A stretch of DNA of 64,000 nt, from assembly GCF_900445235.1 (NCBI RefSeq), contig NZ_UFSM01000001.1, positions 3,921,501 to 3,985,500 of the forward strand. Reading direction: 5' to 3'. Under the pieces are notes generated by a model. The model searched no databases and was not told the DNA's origin. It worked only from the letters and a program-made list of their open reading frames with translations. Every line of letters begins with the position of its first letter. The stretch's first letter is position 1. This stretch comes from Aminobacter aminovorans (GTDB lineage: Bacteria > Pseudomonadota > Alphaproteobacteria > Rhizobiales > Rhizobiaceae). A program made the position numbers and the translations under genes. This document shows positions 2,173 through 64,000 of this stretch, one piece after another.

Positions 2173-4361
2173 CAGCCGCGATCCCGGCGCGGACCGCCGG
2201 GCCGTCCGCCACGCGGGCCGTCAGAACGGGGCTTATCCGAACGAGGCTTGTCGAAGTCGGCCTTGCCGCGCGGCTTGGCAGCGTAGTCGGCCTTGGCCTT
2301 TTCACTTTGCGGACGCGCGCCCGGAGCCATCCAGACATTTGCCTTGCGCGCACCAGGCGTCTCGAACGGCTTCTTTTCGCGCTCGTCACCCTTCTTGCCG
2401 CCAAACTTCGGCTTGTCACCAAACTTCGGCTTGTCGCCAAACCTGGGCTTGTCACCGAACTTCGGCTTGTCGCCAAATTTCGGCTTGTCGCCATAGCTCG
2501 GCTTGTCACCGAAGCCGGCAGGGCGTTCGGTCGACAGGCGACCCAGAACGTCCTCACGATGACGCTCGCGATCGCGCTTGCGGTTCTTGATCAGGCCGCC
2601 TTCGCCGATGTCGAGGCGGGCGGTGCGCGGGGCGCGCGGCGCCTCTTCCTCGCGACGTTCCTCGCGGCGGAAGGTAGGCTTGTTGGAGAAGGGCTTGACG
2701 ATGTCGGCGTCGAAATTGGCGCCCGACTCCTCGATCAGCCGCTCGCCGAGCTGGTCGCGCAGCATCTTGCCCTTGATCTCCTGAACATGGCCCTCGGGCA
2801 GCTCGCCGAGCTGGAACGGTCCGTAGGAGATGCGGATCAGGCGGTTCACCTCGAGGCCGAGCGCGCCGAGGATGTTCTTGACCTCGCGGTTCTTGCCTTC
2901 ACGAAGGCCGATGGTGATCCAGGCATTGCTGCCCTGCTCGCGGTCGAGCGTCGCTTCGATCGAGCCGTAGAACACGCCCTCGACGGCAATGCCGTCCTTG
3001 AGACCGTCCAGCGTCTTCTGCTCGACCTTGCCATGGACACGCACGCGGTAGCGGCGCAGCCAGCCGGTCGCCGGCAGTTCGAGCACGCGCGACAGGCCGC
3101 CATCATTGGTCAAAAGCAACAGGCCTTCGGTGTTGATGTCGAGGCGGCCGATGGTCATCAGGCGCGGCAGCTCTTGCGGCAGCACGTCGAAGACGGTCTT
3201 GCGGCCCTCGGGATCGCGGTTGGTGGTGACCACGCCCGCCGGCTTGTGGAACAGGAACAGGCGGGTGCGCTCGATCGGCGGGATTTCCATGCCGTCGAGA
3301 TGGATGATGTCATCCGGCATGACGTTGACCGCCGGCGACGCCAGGATCTTGTTGTTGACCTTGACGCGGCCGGCAGCAATCAGCTCCTCGGCATCGCGGC
3401 GCGAGGCGAGGCCCGCACGTGCCAGGCGCTTGGCGATACGCTCGCCCGGCTCCGGCGCATCCTCGGGAGCGCGCGGGCGCGGCTTGAAGCCATCGCTCGA
3501 CGGGCGACGGTCGCCATCCGGCCTCGGACGGAACGCCCTCGCCTCGCCGCCTTCACGCTTTTCGTAAGGCCTGCCACCTTCAGGGCGCGGGCCCGAACGG
3601 AACGGGCGGTCGCCACTTGCGGGGCGGGCCTCGCCGTCGCGCGAACGGAATTCGCGATGCGGGCGCTCGCCGCCTTCGGCGGGACGCGGGCGATACGGCT
3701 TGTCGCCACCAAAGGAGCGGCCGCCTTCACGCTTTTCGTAGGGCTTGCCTTCGGGACGCGGGCCCTTGCTGAACGAGCGCTCGCCGCTGGCGGGACGTGC
3801 TTCACCATCGCGCGGACGGAACTCACGGTGCGGGCGCTCGCCACCTTCGGCCGGACGCGGGCGAAACGGCTTGTCGCCAAAGTAGCGGCCGCCTTCGCGC
3901 TTCTCGTAGGGCTTGCCCTCGGGCCGCGGGCCCTTGTTGAAGGTGCGTTCGCCGCTTGCAGGGCGGGCTTCACCGTCACGCGGACGGAACTCGCGCTTGG
4001 GACGTTCGCCGCCCTCGGCAGTTGCGGCTGGACGCGCACGATAGGGCTTGTCGCCACCAAAGGAGCGGCCGCCTTCGCGCTTATCGTAAGGCTTGCCCTC
4101 GGGACGCGGGCCCTTGTGGAACGTGCGCTCGCCACCTGCCGGCCGCGCGTCATCGCGCGGACCGAAATCGCGCTTGGGACGATCGGGACGATCGCCACCA
4201 CCTGCACTCGCAGGGCGGGGTGAATACGGCTTCTTGGCAAATGGCTTGCCAGCGCCTTCGCTGCGCGGCTTGCCGAATTTCTTCGCACCGCCGTCGCGGC
4301 CGCCTGCTCCAGCCGGTTTTGACCCGCCCTTGCGGGGGAATTTCTTACGATCGTCGTCCAT
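2172..4361 (-). CDS. RsuA/RluB-family rRNA pseudouridine synthase with long low-complexity tails
   Basis: The enzymatic core spans about residues 305-550: an S4 RNA-binding domain (GERIAKRLARAGLASRRDAE) and the RsuA/RluB catalytic motif GRLDINTEGLLLL with Asp408 as nucleophile. The family converts uridine to pseudouridine in 16S or 23S rRNA. The remaining 300 N-terminal residues are Arg/Gly/Pro-rich and contain four ~57-60-residue repeats built around KGPRPEGKPYEKREGG. The C-terminus carries KFGDKP hexapeptide repeats. At 729 residues the protein is about 2.5 times the usual bacterial length; such tails are known in alphaproteobacterial members. The tails are basic and probably bind RNA, which is an inference. 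The stop overlaps the rsmD start. Confidence 0.92.
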   Translation of the reverse strand: MDDDRKKFPRKGGSKPAGAGGRDGGAKKFGKPRSEGAGKPFAKKPYSPRPASAGGGDRPDRPKRDFGPRDDARPAGGERTFHKGPRPEGKPYDKREGGRSFGGDKPYRARPAATAEGGERPKREFRPRDGEARPASGERTFNKGPRPEGKPYEKREGGRYFGDKPFRPRPAEGGERPHREFRPRDGEARPASGERSFSKGPRPEGKPYEKREGGRSFGGDKPYRPRPAEGGERPHREFRSRDGEARPASGDRPFRSGPRPEGGRPYEKREGGEARAFRPRPDGDRRPSSDGFKPRPRAPEDAPEPGERIAKRLARAGLASRRDAEELIAAGRVKVNNKILASPAVNVMPDDIIHLDGMEIPPIERTRLFLFHKPAGVVTTNRDPEGRKTVFDVLPQELPRLMTIGRLDINTEGLLLLTNDGGLSRVLELPATGWLRRYRVRVHGKVEQKTLDGLKDGIAVEGVFYGSIEATLDREQGSNAWITIGLREGKNREVKNILGALGLEVNRLIRISYGPFQLGELPEGHVQEIKGKMLRDQLGERLIEESGANFDADIVKPFSNKPTFRREERREEEAPRAPRTARLDIGEGGLIKNRKRDRERHREDVLGRLSTERPAGFGDKPSYGDKPKFGDKPKFGDKPRFGDKPKFGDKPKFGGKKGDEREKKPFETPGARKANVWMAPGARPQSEKAKADYAAKPRGKADFDKPRSDKPRSDGPRGGRPGGPRRDRG

Positions 4362-4437
4362 GGTGGCCTTTGCCCTTTTCGGCGGCTAGATAACAGGAAG
4401 CTCGGGGGTTAGCGAGGGGTAACAGGATGGTTGAGGC

Positions 4438-4890
4438 GTGAAACGGCCCGATTACATGGCATTGGCCTTCGACGAGGCCGAAGCGGCAGCGGCGCGCGGC
4501 GAAGTGCCGATCGGCGCGGTCATCGTCCAGGGCAACGAAATCGTCGCCCGTGCCGGCAACCGGACCCGCGAACTCAACGATGCCACCGCGCATGCCGAAA
4601 TACTGGCGATCCGCCAAGCCTCCGAGCGGCTCGGCCAGGAGCGCCTGACCGGGCTCGACCTCTATGTGACGCTCGAACCCTGCACCATGTGCGCCGCCGC
4701 GATCTCGTTTGCCCGCCTGCGCCGGCTCTATTTCGGCGCCGCCGACGACAAGGGCGGCGCGGTGGTCAGCGGTATCCGCTTCTACGCCTCCCCCACCTGC
4801 CATCATGCACCCGATGTATATGCCGGCATCGGCGAAACACGCGCCGCCGAGATGCTCAAGAGCTTCTTCAAGGATCGGCGCGAGGACTAG
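4438..4890 (+). CDS. tadA: tRNA(adenine34) deaminase TadA
   Basis: TadA deaminates A34 to inosine in the tRNA-Arg(ACG) anticodon. In this 150-residue protein HAE (His52, Glu54) and PCTMC (Cys82, Cys85) form the zinc site and proton shuttle, and GEVPIGAVIV near the N-terminus is family-typical. The start chosen is GTG at 4438, with AGGA about 10 nt upstream; ATG at 4456 would give a shorter N-terminus and cannot be excluded. The gene diverges from the pseudouridine synthase gene, 76 nt away, and is followed by a hairpin terminator. Confidence 0.93.
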   Translation: MKRPDYMALAFDEAEAAAARGEVPIGAVIVQGNEIVARAGNRTRELNDATAHAEILAIRQASERLGQERLTGLDLYVTLEPCTMCAAAISFARLRRLYFGAADDKGGAVVSGIRFYASPTCHHAPDVYAGIGETRAAEMLKSFFKDRRED

Positions 4891-54264: not shown

Positions 54265-54635
54265 GTCTTATCCTCAAAGCAAAGCGGCTCGCCGAGGCGA
54301 GCTGTTCAGGGTGTTTTTCAGGGGGAAATGCCGATGTTCTTTGCGCCTGACGCGAACCATGCGCTGGCCGCCATCGATCGACATCTATTCAGCAGCGATT
54401 ATCGCCAGGCAGGGCAAATGGGCTGCGAAACGGACTGGGGCCGGACCTCGAGAGGCTGTGCTGTTCAGCCAGACTGCCATGGCCTGCCGGATGGACGTGG
54501 TCAGAACCAAGAACTCGAGGAGCACGCCCCGCGCCGTCCAAAACGCCCTGTCCGATCCAGGATGGGATCGGACGATTGAACGGCGCCACGACCGCGGTTT
54601 CCCGATCCTCCGCCGCAACACAGGATTTTACGCCG
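54265..54635. other. Intergenic region upstream of tail fibre and small membrane gene
   Basis: The region holds one weak candidate: an 83-codon plus-strand frame at 54328-54579 with a strong AGGGGGAA site, whose first 30 residues look protein-like and the rest does not. A hairpin GCTCGC-CGAG-GCGAGC begins near 54288. No gene is called. Confidence 0.4.
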
Positions 54636-54881
54636 ATGCTCGACAAATTCCTGATCTGGTTCTCATGGATCCACGCCGCCATCGGCGCCGGCGCGATTAC
54701 GCTTTTCATCCTGTACCGGTCGTTCTTTCATGCAGAGAACAGAGAGGAGAACGTCCGTTTTCTGCGCCAGAATCCGATGGCCATACTCTGGATATTCGCC
54801 GGAGCGTTTACCGCCATCATGATTTCAGTGGGCCTGGTGGACCGTTTCATCAATGGTTACAGAACCGGCGAACTGTTCTGA
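54636..54881 (+). CDS. Small two-helix membrane protein of the prophage region
   Basis: The 81-residue protein has two hydrophobic helices (FLIWFSWIHAAIGAGAITLFILY and PMAILWIFAGAFTAIMISVGLV) with a charged loop (HAENREENVRFLRQN) between them. The ATG at 54636 is chosen; AGGA is about 11 nt upstream. It is isolated on the plus strand among minus-strand phage genes and may be a moron. No family recognised. Confidence 0.6.
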   Translation: MLDKFLIWFSWIHAAIGAGAITLFILYRSFFHAENREENVRFLRQNPMAILWIFAGAFTAIMISVGLVDRFINGYRTGELF

Positions 54882-55194: not shown

Positions 55195-57315
55195 ATGGGC
55201 CTGTTTATCGAACTGTTGATTGACCCTGCACGGATGACCTTCATGGCATTTCTGTTGGCGACCGCTCTCGAACTCAAGAACAGGACTGCCTCAACGATCT
55301 GTCTCGGGGCGATCGTGTTTGCGGTCCTGATGCCCTTGGTATTCAGGCCGACCGAGGCTCCCGGCAAGCACATAGCGTTGGGCCTGATCGCGAACCTGCT
55401 TCTGCTCGCGATCTTCTACCGTTTTCATACCCTGGTGTTGCGCCGCCTTGACCAAGGTTCAAACCGACTACTCATGGAACTGTTCGATCTGTTTCGCAGC
55501 AGAAAAGCCCTCAGTGAGCGCGCACTCCTCGCGGAGGCCCGCGCCAGAAGCCAAAACCGCGCTTTGCTGCGCTCGGCCATCTCCACGATCGGTGGCGAGC
55601 GGATAGCCGCCGGGTCCGATACCCAGCTTGCGGCGCGCTCGGCGTCGCTGCTGACCAGGCACGTCATGACGCCCGGCTCGGCCGACGACGGTGCCGAGCG
55701 CTTGCTGGCGGGCATGTTCGCCCAGATCGCCGCCGCACATTTCTCGCGCAAGATCGGTACGAATTTCGACAGTGCCGTCGCGCAGGCGGTGCTCGAAATC
55801 ACCGACATCGCCGATCGGCATGAGCTCGGCAACATCATCGGCATTTACTATGAGCTGTGCGCGGAAAATAACGAACTGACCGCAACAGTCAGGCAATTCT
55901 TTGCCGACTGGATGGCTGATCCAACGCAGGAAAAGCTGGATCGCTTGGGCAGCCTGCGTCTCCTGCTCATCAGGCTGATGACCGATGACGGACTCGGCGA
56001 TTTTCAGAAAACGACAGGCTCGCCTTCATCACCACCAGCGCAGCGCCTCATCCTGTTGGTGGATTGGCACAATCGTCCAGCGGTCATCGGTGAAGCCGGA
56101 GCGTTGGCCATGCTCAAGCCCAATTCGCCTTGGGTGGAGGTCAACTTCAGGGATGTGTTGTGGACCGCTCGAAAGCTCCGCGGACCAGGCTGGCGCGGAC
56201 ACTTCAGGAGCTTCGGCGAACTCAACCCGCCGACGCACTTGCTTGACCAGATTTCGCGTCCACCCCGACAGCGGGAACCGATCGTCCGGTCAGCTGCAGC
56301 GCCCGCCTCGGCGCCATCGCCTGCGCTTCCCACCGGCACATCGGGGGAATCCGGATGTGCCGCACCACCTCCGGACACGACGCTCGATGAGCGCCCCATC
56401 CTTTTGGTGAATTGGGACAACCGTCCAGCGATCATCAGCGGAGGCGGAGCATTCGCCATGCTCGAGCCCAGTTCCCCGTGGGTAGAGGTGGACTTCAGAG
56501 ATGTGTTGTGGACTTCCGACATGCTCACTGAAGCGGCATGGCGCGAACGCTTCAAGAGCTTCGGCGAACTGAACCCGCCGACGCACTTGCTCGACCAGGT
56601 TTCGCCTTCACCCCGAGCGCAGGAACCGGTCGCCTCGCAAGCTCCGCCGCCCGCCGCTTCGGCGCCGCCATCGCCTGCGCTCCCGGCCGGCGCAGCCGGG
56701 GAATCCGCAAGTGCTGCACTGCCTGAAACGAAACCCTATGTACGCACCACCCAATTCATGAATTGGGACAGTCGTCCAGCGGTCATCGGTGAAGCCGGAG
56801 CATTCGCCATGCTCAAGCCCAACTCCCCTTGGGTAGAGGTAGACTTCACCAATGTGTTGTGGACCGCCGGCGTGCTCCCTCAAGCGGACTGGCGCGAACG
56901 TTTCAAAAACTTCGGCGAGCTGAACCCGCCGATGCTCGACCAGGTTTCGCCCCGAGCGCAGGAGCCGATCGTCCGGTCCGTTGCGGCGCCCTCTGCTTCG
57001 ACGCCGCCATCGCCTGCGCTCCCGGCCGGCGCAGCCGGTGAATCCGCAAGTGCTGCACCACCTGACACCAAACCCTACAAGCGCCCCACCAATTTGGTGA
57101 ATTGGGACAACCGTCCGGCGATCATTGGTGATGCAGGAGCATTTGCCATGCTCAAGCCCAACTCTTCTTGGGTAGAGGTGGACTTTTTGGATGTCTGGAG
57201 AACCGCCGACATACTCTCCGAAGAGGCCTGGCGCGAACGCTTCAAGCGCTTCGGCGAACTGAACCCGCCGATGATCGACCAGGTTTCGCCTGCAGCAGCA
57301 CGCGACATCGAATAG
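55195..57315 (+). CDS. 706-residue membrane protein with four tandem modules
   Basis: The N-terminus has two hydrophobic segments (about residues 10-25, 35-50) and a third (HIALGLIANLLLLAIFY), then a helical region of about 180 residues. From residue 288 four copies of a ~67-residue module follow: consensus W-x-RPA-I-x(3)-GAFAMLKP-x-S-WVEV-F-DV, then SE-x(2)-WRERF-x-FGELNPP. They are joined by Pro/Ala linkers. No known family. The gene is on the opposite strand from the virion genes and a fifth copy of the module lies inside one of them. Likely a moron. Confidence 0.6.
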   Translation: MGLFIELLIDPARMTFMAFLLATALELKNRTASTICLGAIVFAVLMPLVFRPTEAPGKHIALGLIANLLLLAIFYRFHTLVLRRLDQGSNRLLMELFDLFRSRKALSERALLAEARARSQNRALLRSAISTIGGERIAAGSDTQLAARSASLLTRHVMTPGSADDGAERLLAGMFAQIAAAHFSRKIGTNFDSAVAQAVLEITDIADRHELGNIIGIYYELCAENNELTATVRQFFADWMADPTQEKLDRLGSLRLLLIRLMTDDGLGDFQKTTGSPSSPPAQRLILLVDWHNRPAVIGEAGALAMLKPNSPWVEVNFRDVLWTARKLRGPGWRGHFRSFGELNPPTHLLDQISRPPRQREPIVRSAAAPASAPSPALPTGTSGESGCAAPPPDTTLDERPILLVNWDNRPAIISGGGAFAMLEPSSPWVEVDFRDVLWTSDMLTEAAWRERFKSFGELNPPTHLLDQVSPSPRAQEPVASQAPPPAASAPPSPALPAGAAGESASAALPETKPYVRTTQFMNWDSRPAVIGEAGAFAMLKPNSPWVEVDFTNVLWTAGVLPQADWRERFKNFGELNPPMLDQVSPRAQEPIVRSVAAPSASTPPSPALPAGAAGESASAAPPDTKPYKRPTNLVNWDNRPAIIGDAGAFAMLKPNSSWVEVDFLDVWRTADILSEEAWRERFKRFGELNPPMIDQVSPAAARDIE
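56056..56256 (+). repeat. Module R1
   Basis: First copy of the ~200-nt module: begins VDWHNRPAVIGEAGALAML and ends FGELNPPTHLLDQIS. Most divergent in its middle (KLRGPGWRGHF in place of SE-x-x-WRERF). Confidence 0.8.
56404..56604 (+). repeat. Module R2
   Basis: Second copy: begins VNWDNRPAIISGGGAFAML and ends FGELNPPTHLLDQVS. Confidence 0.8.
56755..56949 (+). repeat. Module R3
   Basis: Third copy: begins MNWDSRPAVIGEAGAFAML and ends FGELNPPMLDQVS, two codons shorter than R1 and R2. Confidence 0.8.
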
Positions 57316-57318
57316 AGA
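57094..57318 (+). repeat. Module R4
   Basis: Fourth copy: begins VNWDNRPAIIGDAGAFAML and ends NPPMIDQVS, then the stop codon. Similarity to R5 continues past the stop (shared GAATAGAGA and a further CTCCAGC). Confidence 0.8.
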
Positions 57319-57626
57319 TAGGCAGCTTCCATCTCCAGCGAAGGCTGCCCGCCTACCGCCATTGGCTACTGTCGGAGCCGATGCCATGTTGTTGGGCCAG
57401 CGTCCTCAGACTTCCGGTTCCGCTGGCTGCCGGCAAACTCCGCGCGGCTCCGGCATCTCCTGTTGTAAGGCCGCCGGACGTATCCACCGTTCGGCAGAGA
57501 GCCGGCGTGCGGGAATTGGGCAAAGCGGCACCCTCTTTTTCCCTCGACAGTGTCCTTCCACAGTCCAGCCCCGACATGTGTCGACATGAGTTGCGGCCAG
57601 TTGCCGTCCCCTGGAAAGCGCCGCCC
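57319..57626. other. Intergenic region between converging genes
   Basis: The first ~30 nt continue the module similarity on the minus frame (SLEMEAAYLYS, compare KLEKEEKALYS in the 1514-residue protein). The remainder holds nothing I recognise. Confidence 0.45.
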
Positions 57627-60600
57627 CTATGCGGCCAGGGTGAGCTCAGGCTCGACACCTCTGAAATCGTCCGGCAACCCGAAGCCACCCTCGATGAGCC
57701 AGCGCCAATAGGGCAGCGTCAGGAACGGCGCCATCCTGGAGCGGCGGTCGACATCACCAGGCAACATGGCGAGATCAGTTGACGAGGCGCGAGCGGGAAT
57801 GCCGAGCAACCGCGCCGCATCTGTTCCAAGCCGGAATGACGGGCCGAGCCGAGAGCCGTAGGCGTCCCGATCGGCGACACGCGCGGCGGGCCGACCTGCG
57901 TAGGCTGTCGGATCGGGCAACTGCCCGTTTGCCAATGCATGGAAGTCCGGGCCGCCCAGCTTTTCCCAGGCATTGTTGATCTCCATGCCGACCGACATGA
58001 TGCCGGAGCGGTCCAGCCCTGCGGCAATCCATGTTTCGGAATCCTCTGCAAGCTCGCGGCCCGATTCCATGGCCTCGAGCCAGCAGACCAGCATGCCAAG
58101 CGCAGACATGCCCAGCGTGCCCGAGACGAACGAGCCCGGACCGTCCTGCAGGCCGTGCATCGATGCACGCTGATTGGCGGCCAGCGCGAAGCTCGTGAAT
58201 TGTTGCAAGGCCCTGCCCTCCGGCGTGTGCGCGAACAGCGGCACATCCGCCAGGCTGCTGTCGGCCACCGTGTTGTCGACGTCCTTGTTGACGGCGGCAG
58301 TGAAGGCGCGGCGCGCTTCGTCATCGGTCCAGCGCTCGATCAGCGGGATATGGACGGTGTCTTCGACCTCGCGGTACCAAAAGAACTGAATCGCAATTCT
58401 TGTGGCCATTTCCTCGTCGATACCGACCAATTCCATGTATTTACGGTCAGGTTCGGCCAGGCCCGCGTAGCCCCGGAATCCCGGCTGTGTTACCACAAGA
58501 TTAGTGACTTGGGACCATCGTCCAGCAGTCATCGACGAAGCAGGAGCATTCGCCATGCTCAGGCCCACCTCCCCCTGGGTGGCGGTCGACTTTCTGGATG
58601 TATGGGAAACCGCCGACGTGCTCTCCGAAGCGCCCTGGCGCGAGCGCTTCAAGAGCATCGGCGAACTCAACTCGCCGATGGTGTCGCTCGACCAGGTCTC
58701 GCCTGCGGCAACCCGCGCCGCCGAATAGAGAGCCTTTTCCTCCTTCTCCAGCTTGAGGAATTCCTCGGACGTGGGATCGAGCTTTCGCGTGAGATTGTAC
58801 AGCTCTTCTCCGCGTCCGAACTTCGCGTCATGCAGGTTCGGTTCCCACAGCTGGACCTCACCCACGGTTCCATCGTCAAAGCGCAGGATGACCTTGCGGT
58901 CGAAGTAGCCGTTGGGCTTTTCCTTCCAGCCTTCATCCACAACGTCGTATCGCTCCGCCAGCTTCGCAACGACATCGTCGGCCTGGGCAGGTGTCTCGAC
59001 CACGAAGCCGGTCCGGACCACATCCGTCAGGTGAGACGCGTCGTCATATCCCTTGCGCGCAATCTTGTCTGCCGCTGTTTCCTTGTCCTTGAATCCAGGG
59101 TTTACGAAGGTTGAGCCGGTTGCCTCGGCGACTTCGTCTCCCGGAACTGCAAGGTCGGCCTGCCATTTGCCGGCGACCGCATAGAGCTCATGGAGCGACA
59201 CAGTCGGCTGCTGCGAGAAATCGCCAACGACGACCTCCCGAGCAGGCAGGGAAGCGCCATCGCTCGCCGCAAGCGCATTCTTCAGGATGCGGTTCTGAAC
59301 CAGCACCGAAGAAGCGTGCGTGTTCAAATCGGTCAGGAACGGCAGCAGCCTCATTCCAGAGAAGGTGGAGCCCATGTTGTCGACCAGCTGCTCGAAGGGC
59401 GAATTCATCGCATGGGGATCGGTCAGCCCCGCCATGGTGGCGATACGCGAGCGCAACAGGTGTTTCACCACCGCGCAAAGGAGCCTGGCATCGGCGGCCG
59501 CGAACTTGATCGCGCCGAGATTGGTGATCAGCGGCGCGATACCTTCATTCATGTACCGGCCGAGCCCGTACACCATTGCCGGCCGCACCGCATCTCCCAG
59601 CGACGAAACCAGCATGCCGGCGAGCCGGCCCATGACCTCGAACAGCCCCGCCGTCCGCAACACGCGGGCGAAGTCGGTGTGCCGGCTGTCGAGCCCGGAC
59701 TGCCCGCGCAGAAAATCGCGCATGGCAGTGGCGTCCTCGATGTCGCTGCTTTCCCGACTGATCATGTCCCGGAGTGCCTCAGCCTTGGCTGCTTCGTCCA
59801 GGTCGGATGCCTGGACCTGCTCACGCAGCTGCCGGTAATCCTCTGCCAGCCGGCTGAGCTGGCTTTGAAGTGTCGGCTTGCCCGGGCCGCCAAGGCGCCT
59901 GTCCAGCCGCGCCAATGCGATGTCGGCCGCAATGACGCGTGCAAAGCGCCGGCCGATCAATTCGATGTCGTGTTCAAGAAACTCCTCGATGAGATCCAAA
60001 TCGATGTCGAAGGGGCGTCCCTTCAGCAGTGCGTGCGTCGACATAACGATGTCATAGAACGGCATGTCCTGGTTTGCCCGACTGGCGGCCTGGGAAAAGA
60101 TGTCGTCGACGACGCCGTTCACATAGTCCGCCCGCTCCTCGGGCGACCGAAACCGATGGCTATTCGGCTTGGCCTCCGGCGCCAACTGGTCGGGCGCGTC
60201 GGGTTTCACGCCCTTGATGCGGGCGGGCTTGCCCATCTTGTCAGCCTTGAGCTCAAGCTCGGCAAGCTTTTGGTCAACCCACTGCCTCACAATGGTCTTG
60301 AAGCGGGCTTCGCCGGCTTTCAGCCGCGGGGCGTTCCCGAAGCGGGCCAGAAACAAAATAGCGCCCTGGTCGCTTACGCCAGCCGGCAGCAGCCCCGCCT
60401 TGATTGCCAGCTGCTTCAGCGGAGAAAACACTGCTTTGCGCCAGGTAACTGCGGCTTTGTGTACCGCTTCGTTGTCGCTGTTATCTGCCCGACGTATGGC
60501 CTTGCCGACGGCGATTTTGAACTCATCCCAGCTCATGTTGAAGCCGCGGACCTTGCGCGCTTCGTTGTAGATGGCGCGCATTCTGGTCAGAGCCTTGGCG

Positions 60601-62171
60601 ACCCCGGCGCGACCCCAGAATTTCACTTCACTTTCCAAGGCTATTTCGCCGTCGCCGCGCGCAATGTTTTCAACATGGGAGCCGGTTTCGACCAGGTCGG
60701 CCATGAGCGAACGATGAACGGCAGACGGACTGTCCAGGGCGCGCCGCAGCGGCCCGAGATGATCGGTGGCCGTGCCAGCCGTCCCGGCGCCCGCGGCGTT
60801 GTCGAAGTCTTTGATGGTGCCGTCCGCAGCAGTGCCCGCGACCTGTTCTTCGGCAAAGCCCGCCCTGACGTCAGCCGGCGCAACGCCGCTGTCGTCGGCC
60901 TCTGCCAAAACACGGGAGACCGTGGCCAGCGGCTTGCCGCCTACAGCGCTGTCGACGTCTTTGACGTAACCATCCGCAGCAGCTCCTGCGACCTGTTCTT
61001 CGGCAAGGCCCGCCCTGACTTCAGCCGGCACAGCCCCGCTGTCATTGGCCTCCGCCAATACACGGCCGACCGTGGCCGGCGGCCTGCCGCCCACAGCGCT
61101 GTCGACGTCTTTGACGTAACCATCCGCAGCAGTGCCCGCGACCTGTCCTTCGGCAAGGCCCGCCCTCACGTCAGCCGGTGTCACGCCGCTGTCGTCGGCC
61201 TCCGCCAATACACGGCCGACCGTGGCCAGCGGCTTGCCGCCCACAGCGTTGTCGACGTCTTTGATGTTGCCATCCGCGGCAGTGCCCGCGACCTGTTCTT
61301 CGGCAATGCCCGCCCTGACTTCAGCCGGCACAGCCCCGCTGTCGTGGGCCTCGAACAAAACACGGTCGACAGTGGCCAGCGGCTTTTCGCCCACAGCACT
61401 ATCGGCATCTTTGATGTTGCCGTCCGAGCCCGCGACCTGTTCTTCGGCAAGGCCCGCCCTGACTTCAGCCGGCACAGCCCCGCTGTCGTGGGCCTCGAAC
61501 AAAACACGGTCGACAGTGGCCAGTGCTGCCTTGCGTTGAGCCGCCGAAAAAAGTGCGCCGATACCCCCACCAAGGAGCGTGCCGAGCACCGCACCGCTGC
61601 CAATGGCAAGGATGCTTTCTTCGAGAGGCCGCGTCTGCTGTGTGGCCTGCAACGCCGTTTCGGACACGGTGGCACCGAGCGCACCGGCAAAGCCGGTCGA
61701 CAGTGCCGTGCGGGCAATGGTGCCGCCAACAGTCGCCCCACGCACCAGCGCCCCGCCCGGGAGGAGCGATGGCCAGTCGAACGCCTGAGCGCCGAATTGT
61801 GCAAATGTCGCGGTCCAGCCGCCAGCTTCGAGAATGCGGTCGTCTTCCCGCTCCATGTCGATCTGGCTTTTCATGGCTGCGTGCGCGCGCCAGTTGCGCA
61901 GCGTGGTGAAGCGTTGCCAATGCGGTTCGTAAGCCGTGCCGCGAATGTCGTTCCAGGCAGCTTCGCCGGTATAGCTCGCTTCGGGCGTCGTCCGATCAAT
62001 GCCGGCCAGCTTGTTGTTGGCGGCCGAGCCGAACGTGTTGCCGTCTCGCCATGCTGCCCCGATCACCGTCGCCGTGTCGGGATCGAGCTCCGGCTCGTCC
62101 ATCTCAGTGTAGTCGAGCGCGCGAAAGGTGCCCAGCACAGGACGCTCATCGGGATACTCAATCTGCGGCAT
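57627..62171 (-). CDS. Large polyvalent virion protein of the prophage (1514 residues)
   Basis: Very long protein typical of internal or injected virion proteins of podovirus-like phages. The N-terminal ~200 residues include Gly/Ala-rich membrane-like segments (GSGAVLGTLLGGGIGALFSAA). Residues ~214-464 are about five 50-residue repeats (unit LATVGRVLAEADDSGVTPAD). Long helical regions follow. Around residues 1024-1144 a segment resembles a RelA/SpoT-like fold (HLTDVVRTGFVVETPAQADD; VGEVQLWEP). Residues ~1157-1224 are the antisense of module R5. The C-terminal ~270 residues (GIDEEMATRIAIQFF; SGRELAEDSETWIAAGLDRS) resemble rhizobial phage virion proteins. It overlaps the upstream gene by 14 nt. 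Confidence 0.8.
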   Translation of the reverse strand: MPQIEYPDERPVLGTFRALDYTEMDEPELDPDTATVIGAAWRDGNTFGSAANNKLAGIDRTTPEASYTGEAAWNDIRGTAYEPHWQRFTTLRNWRAHAAMKSQIDMEREDDRILEAGGWTATFAQFGAQAFDWPSLLPGGALVRGATVGGTIARTALSTGFAGALGATVSETALQATQQTRPLEESILAIGSGAVLGTLLGGGIGALFSAAQRKAALATVDRVLFEAHDSGAVPAEVRAGLAEEQVAGSDGNIKDADSAVGEKPLATVDRVLFEAHDSGAVPAEVRAGIAEEQVAGTAADGNIKDVDNAVGGKPLATVGRVLAEADDSGVTPADVRAGLAEGQVAGTAADGYVKDVDSAVGGRPPATVGRVLAEANDSGAVPAEVRAGLAEEQVAGAAADGYVKDVDSAVGGKPLATVSRVLAEADDSGVAPADVRAGFAEEQVAGTAADGTIKDFDNAAGAGTAGTATDHLGPLRRALDSPSAVHRSLMADLVETGSHVENIARGDGEIALESEVKFWGRAGVAKALTRMRAIYNEARKVRGFNMSWDEFKIAVGKAIRRADNSDNEAVHKAAVTWRKAVFSPLKQLAIKAGLLPAGVSDQGAILFLARFGNAPRLKAGEARFKTIVRQWVDQKLAELELKADKMGKPARIKGVKPDAPDQLAPEAKPNSHRFRSPEERADYVNGVVDDIFSQAASRANQDMPFYDIVMSTHALLKGRPFDIDLDLIEEFLEHDIELIGRRFARVIAADIALARLDRRLGGPGKPTLQSQLSRLAEDYRQLREQVQASDLDEAAKAEALRDMISRESSDIEDATAMRDFLRGQSGLDSRHTDFARVLRTAGLFEVMGRLAGMLVSSLGDAVRPAMVYGLGRYMNEGIAPLITNLGAIKFAAADARLLCAVVKHLLRSRIATMAGLTDPHAMNSPFEQLVDNMGSTFSGMRLLPFLTDLNTHASSVLVQNRILKNALAASDGASLPAREVVVGDFSQQPTVSLHELYAVAGKWQADLAVPGDEVAEATGSTFVNPGFKDKETAADKIARKGYDDASHLTDVVRTGFVVETPAQADDVVAKLAERYDVVDEGWKEKPNGYFDRKVILRFDDGTVGEVQLWEPNLHDAKFGRGEELYNLTRKLDPTSEEFLKLEKEEKALYSAARVAAGETWSSDTIGELSSPMLLKRSRQGASESTSAVSHTSRKSTATQGEVGLSMANAPASSMTAGRWSQVTNLVVTQPGFRGYAGLAEPDRKYMELVGIDEEMATRIAIQFFWYREVEDTVHIPLIERWTDDEARRAFTAAVNKDVDNTVADSSLADVPLFAHTPEGRALQQFTSFALAANQRASMHGLQDGPGSFVSGTLGMSALGMLVCWLEAMESGRELAEDSETWIAAGLDRSGIMSVGMEINNAWEKLGGPDFHALANGQLPDPTAYAGRPAARVADRDAYGSRLGPSFRLGTDAARLLGIPARASSTDLAMLPGDVDRRSRMAPFLTLPYWRWLIEGGFGLPDDFRGVEPELTLAA
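58501..58701 (+). repeat. Module R5, antisense inside the virion gene
   Basis: Fifth copy of the module on the plus strand: begins VTWDHRPAVIDEAGAFAML and ends SPMVSLDQVS, with a plus-frame stop at 58726-58728. The minus-strand virion frame passes through it without interruption. In this phase the third codon positions of both strands face each other. Confidence 0.85.
60780..61530 (-). repeat. Five 144-150-nt tandem repeats in the virion gene
   Basis: The unit encodes LATVGRVLAEADDSGVTPAD followed by VRAGLAEEQVAG and a DGxIKDxDxAVG end. Units are 48 or 50 residues and differ by a few substitutions each. They follow directly after a hydrophobic N-terminal region. Confidence 0.85.
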
Positions 62172-64000
62172 CGTCGCTCCACATGGCGTCGTTCATCGCA
62201 TGGCCGAAGGTGACTGGCAGTTTCTCGGGATCGAAGGTTGGCTTTGCCGGAGTCTCAAGCGGTCGCTTTCGGATTGTTTCGGACTGGGATCGACCAAGCT
62301 CGCGGGCAGCTTCGGCAGCGCGCGCCTTCATCCAGTCGGGACCGACCGTTTCCTCGAGCGCACGCGTGGCGGCAGCATCGCCGGCGCGTACAGCGTCACT
62401 CGCCGCGTCCTGGCGCGCGCGCTCGGCCATGGAGAGCTTGCCGAGCTTGTCGCTGTATTGCTTGAACGTTGCGGCATCGACACCCCATGGCGGGCCGAAG
62501 ACCTCGCTGAATTTGGTCTGGCCGCCGGAGGTGTATTGATAGAACAGGCGATAGCGCGGGGGGCGTTTTCCCTCGATGTCGGCGCGGGTCTTGTCGGACG
62601 CCAGGATCGCGACGTTCTCGACCTTCCGGCCAAGCTTGGCGGCGTAGTCACTGGCGGTCTTCATGGCATCTTCGCGCAGATAGTCGAAACTGTCTCCGAT
62701 CGCCGGATAGTGCAACTCGGGCGGCATCCGCATCAGATTCGGAGAGCCCGAAACGTTGCTGACGTTCCAACGGCGCTTGAGGTCGGTGAGCGCCGCGGCC
62801 TTCGCCGCAGCGGCATCGCCGCCATATTCGTAGAATTTTTCTTCGGCAATCTCGCGATATTCGGTCAGCAGACCGTTGGGCTGCTGCGGGACGATGCCGG
62901 CGCCGGGCGCCGAGAACAGCCAACCTTGGTCAAAGGAGCTCGTCACATCAGAGACGCTCAGATACTTGATGAACCTGGCCGCCTTGGTCTTCAGCACTTC
63001 GCGATTGGCCACCATCAACGGATCGGACGCGGCGAGAATGCGGGTCGCTGCCTCTTCACCGCCGAGGCCGAGATCAACGACCAGGTGGCGGAAGACGCCG
63101 AGCTTTTCGCGCGCCTGTGCGCCACCTTCGAAGGCGCCGAAGGAGACGGGTGCAAGAGGCTCGAGAGCGTCGGCCTTCGACATGGCCGCCGCGAAAGTCG
63201 CCGGATCGGTCGACGCCACACCCTTGCGAATTTCGGCCTGTACGCGTTTGGGGATGTAGCCGGTGCGCGCGACAAACTCCGATGTGATTGCCTTTTGCTT
63301 GACGGCATCTTCGGCTGCGGCAAAGAGCTTGTCATAGGTCTTGTCGGCAATCCTGGTCTGGTCACCGTCGAAGCTGTCGACGTCGACCTTGCCGCTGGCC
63401 AGGGCGCCGATCATCGCATTGACGCCGCCGCTTTCCTGCTGTGCGATGCGAAGGGTCTTCACGAGGTCGGCCTTGTCGCTGCTTTCGAGCGTCGTGTCGG
63501 CCAGGATCACGCTTTCCCGAACCGTGTCCGGCTCGCTGGCAATCAGCTCATTGTAGTTGTCCTTCGACGTCGCGCGCTGCTGCGTGACCTGCTGGCTGTG
63601 TTCCGTCTCGCCCCAAGACGCCAACTGGTCACGACGCTCATAGGGGATCTTGTCGAGGTCGGCGTCCTCCGCCTGCGGGTTCTCGCCTGCGATACGAAGC
63701 GCGTTGTCACGGCGCCCCGTCCAATTGTGTGCGCCGCGGGCATTGCTGGCCGACCATCCTGCTGGTCGCTCGTAACCGGTGAAGGCTGCGGCGGCTTCTT
63801 CTGCGCTTCTTGACCTCGCGAGATTTTCGCCTGCCGCGCGCTCGCTCGTGCGCAACTCGTGATCGATGAAATCGATCTGGGTATTGAAGTCGTGCCAGTC
63901 GGTGCCTTGCGATGCAGCGAACGCCTTGAGCGCCTGCGCGCGCTTTCCGTTCCACTGAGCAATGCCAATGCTGTCCGAGCCGTCGCTGCCGTCACCAGCG
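62158..64000 (-). CDS. Virion protein with tail-lysozyme-like N-terminal domain (5' end outside window)
   Basis: The frame is open to the right edge, so the start lies outside. The visible start contains IGIAQWNGKRAQALKAFAAS, IDFIDHEL and EAAAAFTGYERPAGW, the pattern of phage tail lysozymes that cut peptidoglycan during DNA entry. The following ~500 residues are helical and Ala/Asp-rich without recognised domain (GYIPKRVQAEIRKG; PNLMRMPPELHYPA). It overlaps the next gene by 14 nt, so the two virion proteins are coupled. Confidence 0.8.
   Translation of the reverse strand, partial: AGDGSDGSDSIGIAQWNGKRAQALKAFAASQGTDWHDFNTQIDFIDHELRTSERAAGENLARSRSAEEAAAAFTGYERPAGWSASNARGAHNWTGRRDNALRIAGENPQAEDADLDKIPYERRDQLASWGETEHSQQVTQQRATSKDNYNELIASEPDTVRESVILADTTLESSDKADLVKTLRIAQQESGGVNAMIGALASGKVDVDSFDGDQTRIADKTYDKLFAAAEDAVKQKAITSEFVARTGYIPKRVQAEIRKGVASTDPATFAAAMSKADALEPLAPVSFGAFEGGAQAREKLGVFRHLVVDLGLGGEEAATRILAASDPLMVANREVLKTKAARFIKYLSVSDVTSSFDQGWLFSAPGAGIVPQQPNGLLTEYREIAEEKFYEYGGDAAAAKAAALTDLKRRWNVSNVSGSPNLMRMPPELHYPAIGDSFDYLREDAMKTASDYAAKLGRKVENVAILASDKTRADIEGKRPPRYRLFYQYTSGGQTKFSEVFGPPWGVDAATFKQYSDKLGKLSMAERARQDAASDAVRAGDAAATRALEETVGPDWMKARAAEAARELGRSQSETIRKRPLETPAKPTFDPEKLPVTFGHAMNDAMWSDDAAD

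Follow-up and report, generated by a model that had tools for sequence, protein, structure and literature searches.

How does the same coding module come to stand four times in tandem within one gene and a fifth time on the opposite strand of another? This question is raised by a locus of Aminobacter aminovorans (Rhizobiaceae), contained in a stretch of 64,000 nucleotides (contig NZ_UFSM01000001.1 of assembly GCF_900445235.1, positions 3,921,501 to 3,985,500), which we refer to as the window and whose first letter is position 1. Four copies of the module (R1 to R4) belong to a 706-residue protein, while the fifth (R5) lies antisense within the gene of a 1514-residue internal virion protein (Table 1). 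An initial annotation, made from the letters alone, described this arrangement and proposed either a mobile in-frame protein element or an overprinted sense/antisense gene pair that had spread, although it did not identify the members of such a pair, namely a domain resembling the alarmone-synthetase toxins (toxSAS) and a small protein. In our view R5 is likely to be a member of an overlooked immunity protein family whose genes run antisense within toxSAS genes carried by phages, and the 706-residue protein to be an array of four such modules that has been relocated. Immunity genes are usually sought beside the toxin gene and in the same direction, whereas the likely immunity gene described here runs on the opposite strand inside the toxin frame. 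A standard of annotation that excludes genes nested in others is quoted in PMC7457138.

Results

Five copies of one module

The window holds five 204-nucleotide (nt) copies with 76-80% identity to the second one, and their coordinates bear out the described order of four sense copies, all in frame in the 706-residue protein, and one antisense copy in the virion gene. Matches to the module in the whole genome (E<=0.01) are restricted to these five, all in one locus. At R5 the frames of both strands are open, as had been noted; the plus frame has no stop from 58471 until its TAG (58726-58728), and its first start codon is GTG 58504. We dropped this openness as evidence, since the antisense frame survives open in 45% of synonymous redraws of the overlapping virion tail. 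Over a 56-codon core, R4 and R5 differ at plus codon positions 1, 2 and 3 in 10, 6 and 15 cases, while the 12, 9 and 19 initially counted by hand refer to a longer stretch.

The likeness of R4 and R5 was also said to continue past the plus-strand stop. In register this is real, with 16 of 30 nt matching beyond the common TAG, a value reached by 52 of 20,000 random windows, and it recurs between R4 and the antisense copy of Aminobacter ciceronei DSM 15910, the one relative found in the genome-contig collection (18 of 30 nt; 7 of 20,000 random windows). The likeness is short, however, and weak without a fixed register, being equalled by shuffles 7 to 49 times per 500.

A toxin-like domain inserted in a virion protein

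Both flanks of the region that carries R5 match phrog_16310 and phrog_342 ('internal virion protein with endolysin domain'), and phrog_16310 has no counterpart of the insert between them: the left flank stops at profile position 1158 and the right flank begins at 1161. Among 11 aligned virion homologues the insert columns are empty in nine and filled in two (L014 and L016, which are nearly the same phage), and viral locus L082 has its cassette at the same site of phrog_16310 (1156 to 1165). The initial annotation had set against its own proposals the prospect that the segment occurs in every virion homologue and that independent plus-strand proteins are missing; instead, nine of the 11 homologues are without it and independent modules exist in other phages.

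A profile of three sequences (A3) matched Tas1 (PDB 6ox6_A) with E=4.7e-7 in two stretches, chain positions 249-375 and 400-436. The second stretch extends to residue 436 of 439 and aligns with the segment ending LYSAARAA, exactly where the final codons of R5 overlap. ATP binding in Apk1 involves R330, E382 with the adjacent Q, N370 and K353 (PMC12691689), for which we used a numbering offset of 21 derived from the alignment. The insert retains R, E and Q (DVVR, GEVQ), has K at the position of N (GYFDRK), and K353 falls in an alignment gap. Because its flanks are of a virion family, the insert is absent from homologues and the profile matches Tas1, the minus-strand gene, judged from its sequence, encodes an internal virion protein into which a domain related to the Tas1/Apk alarmone-synthetase toxins has been inserted. 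At the thresholds used, the MuF family was not listed for this gene or for the relatives scanned.

Recurrence at viral toxin genes

A search of IMG/VR with an alignment of five toxin sequences gave 70 toxin loci. These are redundant (L084/L085 are contigs of L015/L016, and L015 equals L014 over the stretch fetched). All their frames (10,600 segments) were scanned with an iterated module profile built from matches on either strand. The module gene adjoins its cognate toxSAS gene, antisense near the toxin end, in 43 of the 70 loci at E<=0.01 and in 40 at E<1e-8, and never (0 of 70) lies on the toxin's own strand. Of the two initial proposals, that of an overprinted pair which spread is supported. 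A model of the Aminobacter modules only still recovered 30 of the 70 loci at E<=1e-3, two of them being the Aminobacter lineage itself.

The 40 strong modules comprise 64-87 residues, start with ATG in 38 cases and GTG in two, and collapse to 23 at 80% identity, 19 of which are read through by the toxin frame. Shine-Dalgarno (SD)-like words of at least 4 nt precede 37 of the 40 open reading frames (ORFs), as compared with 163 of 800 random ATGs in the same loci, and words of at least 5 nt precede 32 as compared with 41 of 800, a contrast somewhat inflated by the fact that starts were picked by SD score first among in-frame candidates while the background consists of single random ATGs. Measured from where the toxin match ends, the 3' end of the antisense ORF lies at -33 to +78 nt. 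The toxin frame traverses the entire module in 34 of the 40 loci, and in six (L102, L104, L105, L115-L117) it stops close to or at the 3' end of the module, with an overlap of -7 to 85 nt; on account of these six, the Ser-rich read-through tail is, as far as sequences tell, dispensable.

The carriers of the toxin vary. Of the 70 loci, six were scanned against PHROGs, and 10 carriers in all were scanned against Pfam, which showed internal virion proteins in the window, A. ciceronei and L082, portal-like proteins preceding the domain in L086, L090 and L112, ddrB-ParB proteins in L080 and L107, and an ART-PolyVal protein in L087. The cassette thus has several kinds of carrier, like polymorphic toxin domains.

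A strong module is missing from 30 loci. In nine of them a different antisense ORF with an SD-like word before it occupies the same position, some of these ORFs starting in a module-like manner (MRFFLIDGSIPA..), and none was found in the remaining 21. ORFs of this other kind near the toxin end were seen at L118, L119-L121, L125, L127 and L128 (MRFFLIDGSIPA.., MRLFRFD..) and are perhaps divergent relatives of the module or other immunity families. A toxin subtype at L129 and L136-L149 has shorter ORFs (476-501 residues) that end soon after the match, and no SD-preceded antisense ORF was found there.

The frame under selection

In 39 of 40 loci the two frames share their third codon positions, which agrees with the caution in the initial annotation that counts by codon position cannot tell the selected strand. 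For this reason such counts alone were dropped, and we compared in each frame the conservativeness of the amino-acid changes with that under random placement of the same nucleotide changes. The module frame was more conserved than the tail frame in all seven overlapping pairs (z 1.69-5.60 as against 0.33-2.56), three of which share sequences; in a separate test of tandem and overlapping modules, z was higher for the plus frame in all 13 comparisons. The overlapping pair of the window and A. ciceronei gave z of 1.80 and 1.18 in the two directions for the module (p 0.024 and 0.13) and 0.37 and -0.40 for the tail, and by itself is only suggestive of selection on the module frame. The tail frame is partly conserved in L086-L087 (z 2.56) and, in one direction, in L080-L081 (z 2.05, p 0.018). 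Stops in the minus frame occur over the core of three of eight tandem modules and in neither of two antisense ones. Selection thus appears mainly in the module (plus) frame, and the Ser-rich tail of the minus frame looks like read-through.

The module as a protein family

With an alignment of 37 sequences (R1 left out), the predicted fold of the module reached pLDDT 79.0 and pTM 0.62, as compared with a poor prediction from the single sequence (pLDDT 43.8). On the basis of conservation, start sites, recurrence and fold prediction, the module is a real, conserved protein family, for which the three family libraries searched had no useful entry. Tis1, the immunity protein of Tas1, gave no profile match to the module and was not among the fold-search matches listed, which excludes nothing. 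Weak matches to CBM96 and haemoglobin were set aside.

The antisense gene in Aminobacter and other genomes

In A. ciceronei the antisense copy is an ORF of 80 codons with AAGGA before its ATG. Relative to it, about 33 nt are absent from the window, including the start region of the antisense gene; the virion frame is preserved, and R5 is left with GTG 58504 and without a clear ribosome site. We infer that R5 has lost its start region here, and with it its expression.

Genome G1154 encodes a polyvalent-type protein with the toxin and a Ser-rich tail, together with an antisense module ORF that the model of Aminobacter-phage modules alone detects at E=4.9e-17 (the tail-frame model gave 0.019 with heavy composition bias). 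The module of genome G443 was first of 160 segments (E=2.8e-4; tail-frame model 0.91), and since the toxin there is cut and out of frame with its upstream part, the locus has probably decayed. Module-profile matches in nine genomes of the class besides the source genome and G443 were rejected: four loci were examined, of which three resemble ClpA (L030, L031 and L032) and one is situated in long repetitive frames (L036), and the remainder is weak. Searches of plasmid and phage collections (tblastn with modules and toxin domains) gave no useful relative besides two tandem synthetase genes of Photobacterium, where the antisense module was not found. These alarmone-synthetase-like frames lie at 2738-3538 and 3695-4582 of a Photobacterium plasmid (L020), whose gene table has nothing there.

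A probable relocated array

The 706-residue protein has hydrophobic windows at residues 32-50 and 57-82, and its gene lies on the plus strand between genes on the minus strand. Genes of lysogenic conversion are often placed in this way, on one strand between genes of the other. A tree of 37 modules, which did not include R1, unites the nine modules of Aminobacter phages, both the tandem and the antisense ones, in a group beside L082 within the antisense family, their inner branching being poorly supported. This position, the 86% identity of R4 to the antisense copy of A. ciceronei and the apparent relic of a toxin end after the stop of R4 indicate that the array probably derives from the antisense gene. 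Phage L017 keeps an array of two modules while its virion gene is without the toxin, as would be expected if the array protects against the toxins of other phages.

Just upstream of the array, a small membrane-like protein (..FLIWFSWIHAAIGAGAITLFI..) is conserved in both phages (plus strand, 54576-54881 in the window; 8333-8578 in L017), and perhaps belongs to the same conversion region. Promoter scans found none.

Table 1. Positions and strands of the features discussed, in the coordinates of the window.
Feature	Position	Strand	Basis or remark
Gene of the 706-residue protein, which comprises a hydrophobic N-terminus, a middle region and the four modules; candidate for a relocated immunity array	55195-57315	+	ORF
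Module R1	56056-56259	+	in frame in the 706-residue protein
Module R2	56404-56607	+	in frame in the 706-residue protein
Module R3	56755-56958	+	in frame in the 706-residue protein
Module R4	57094-57297 (204-nt copy); to stop codon 57315	+	in frame in the 706-residue protein
Probable relic of toxin-domain end after R4 stop	57316-57345	minus	in-register matches: 16/30 nt to R5, 18/30 nt to the A. ciceronei copy
Gene of the 1514-residue internal virion protein carrying the cassette	57627-62171	minus	phrog_16310 and phrog_342 on both insert flanks
Site of ~33-nt absence relative to A. ciceronei, including antisense gene start region	58487-58503	+	alignment with A. ciceronei
Ser-rich read-through tail of the virion protein	58497-58691	minus	antisense to R5; less conserved than module frame
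Module R5	58501-58704 (204-nt copy); to stop 58728	+	antisense to toxin end, open, start site not clear
toxSAS-like (Tas1-related) domain inserted in the virion protein	58692-59243	minus	profile match PDB 6ox6_A; insert absent in 9/11 homologues

Discussion

A proposed role of the module

The linkage of module and toxin makes neutralisation of the toxin the most likely role of the module. The toxSAS-like domain would travel in the virion and enter the infected cell, while the module gene, tail to tail with it on the other strand at the toxin's last helix, would encode a protein that binds the toxin and renders it harmless, allowing the producing cell or the lysogen to survive. Tis1 and IapK hold toxSAS by occluding the acceptor site (PMC11782079, PMC12226406), and by analogy a comparable binding might be expected of the module. 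In most of the phages found, the toxin frame continues across the entire module gene and so acquires a Ser-rich tail, on which little selection is visible. The module also appears to have been copied, in the Aminobacter phages, into a separate plus-strand gene whose product combines a hydrophobic N-terminus with two to four modules; the position of this gene resembles that of a lysogenic-conversion gene, and the array would protect the lysogens. Since the antisense copy of the window is without its start region, the array is probably the working immunity protein here, and may thus have taken over the immunity role.

Other explanations

If only the minus frame mattered, the Ser-rich stretch would be part of the toxin or virion protein, the plus ORF would be incidental, and the 706-residue protein would be that stretch read in reverse. 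Both frames could well be open by chance, as in 45% of redraws, the coincidence of third positions (39 of 40 loci) prevents crude codon counts from separating the frames, and the tail frame is somewhat conserved in some pairs. We nevertheless regard this explanation as very improbable, for the module frame is the more conserved in seven of seven pairs, also across families, SD-like sites precede 37 of 40 module ORFs, the toxin frame stops close to or at the 3' end of the module in six of 40 loci, and three of eight tandem modules contain minus-frame stops. A module inserting into genes in either orientation, as a mobile in-frame protein element, was the other proposal of the initial annotation, and would have a precedent in the palindromic elements of Rickettsia, which occur in many copies in unrelated genes. 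In-frame copies of both orientations in one locus and an in-frame insertion in a virion gene are what it predicts. The data did not support it: all five genomic matches lie in a single locus, the viral modules are linked to the toxin (antisense at its end in 43 of 70 loci, never sense), and the inserted unit is the toxin together with the module, not the module alone. Its chances appear minimal.

A toxin-linked small protein with another task (a chaperone, a loading adaptor or an activator of the toxin), or a locus that acts mainly through antisense RNA, is less easily dismissed, but still unlikely. The fold matches listed include no immunity fold, chaperones may be needed for ejected proteins, and a module transcript would, by its sequence, be perfectly antisense to the toxin mRNA. 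On the other hand, known (p)ppApp toxSAS have small immunity proteins as partners (PMC11782079, PMC12226406), and the array persists in L017, whose virion gene is without the toxin. As to RNA, the conservation at the protein level, the separate sense array of several modules and the SD-like sites argue for a protein rather than a type I toxin-antitoxin system, with an additional effect of the RNA being possible. An antisense-encoded immunity protein therefore remains the explanation that we prefer.

Comparison with known systems

Several known systems share parts of this arrangement. In the MuF toxins Apk2/IapK of temperate phages, too, a phage protein associated with the virion bears an alarmone-synthetase toxin domain, and a small immunity gene is linked to it (PMC12226406); there, however, a MuF N-terminus and a C-terminal toxin are followed by iapK and aph1, whereas here the toxin lies in the interior of an internal virion protein, or is borne by other carriers, and the candidate for the immunity gene runs antisense within the toxin frame. 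Tas1-Tis1 (Apk1), an effector of the type VI secretion system with its immunity protein, has a homologous toxin domain ending just where the antisense module begins (PMC11782079, PMC12691689, PDB 6ox6), but differs in this route of delivery, and a likeness of the module to Tis1 was not detected. RelA/SpoT synthetase domains in large phage proteins are also described among the polyvalent proteins (Iyer et al. 2017, PMC5512222), and ddrB-ParB and ART-PolyVal carriers occur here too; an antisense partner gene is not mentioned in the available text of that article, and the word 'antisense' is absent from its main text. Bacterial proteins whose genes are embedded antisense in another gene are known as well (PMC7457138), but the available text of that review describes individual or genome-wide candidates and not a recurring pair of toxin and partner. 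In the available parts of the literature on toxSAS, MuF toxins, polyvalent and antisense proteins (PMC12691689, PMC11782079, PMC12226406, PMC11699363, PMC5512222, PMC7457138, PMC11278526) we saw no antisense immunity gene nested in a toxin, although the supplementary homologue lists of PMC12691689 may include the toxins treated here.

If confirmed, an antisense immunity gene would explain the Ser-rich tails of the phage proteins found here, would open antisense protein-coding genes to testing by a simple assay of toxicity, and would recommend a search of the strand opposite other phage toxins. More tentatively, and with rather more doubt than confidence, phage toxSAS genes might commonly carry an immunity gene antisense in their own frame. 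Such nesting could be functional, as the toxin would be hard to transfer, trim or recombine away from its immunity and control by RNA and protein would be joined in one locus; annotation rules that drop nested genes would then have hidden a whole immunity family, perhaps others beside different toxins, which the Aminobacter phages freed as a membrane-anchored array of several modules.

Further features of the virion gene

The first part of the 1514-residue virion protein (minus strand, about 61130-61540) contains several tandem repeats of about 50 residues (..PLATVDRVLFEAHDSGAVPAEVRAGLAEEQVAG..). Antisense to the same gene, an open frame of 1007 residues extends on the plus strand from 59190 to 62213, which is probably a by-product of high G+C content and codon usage.
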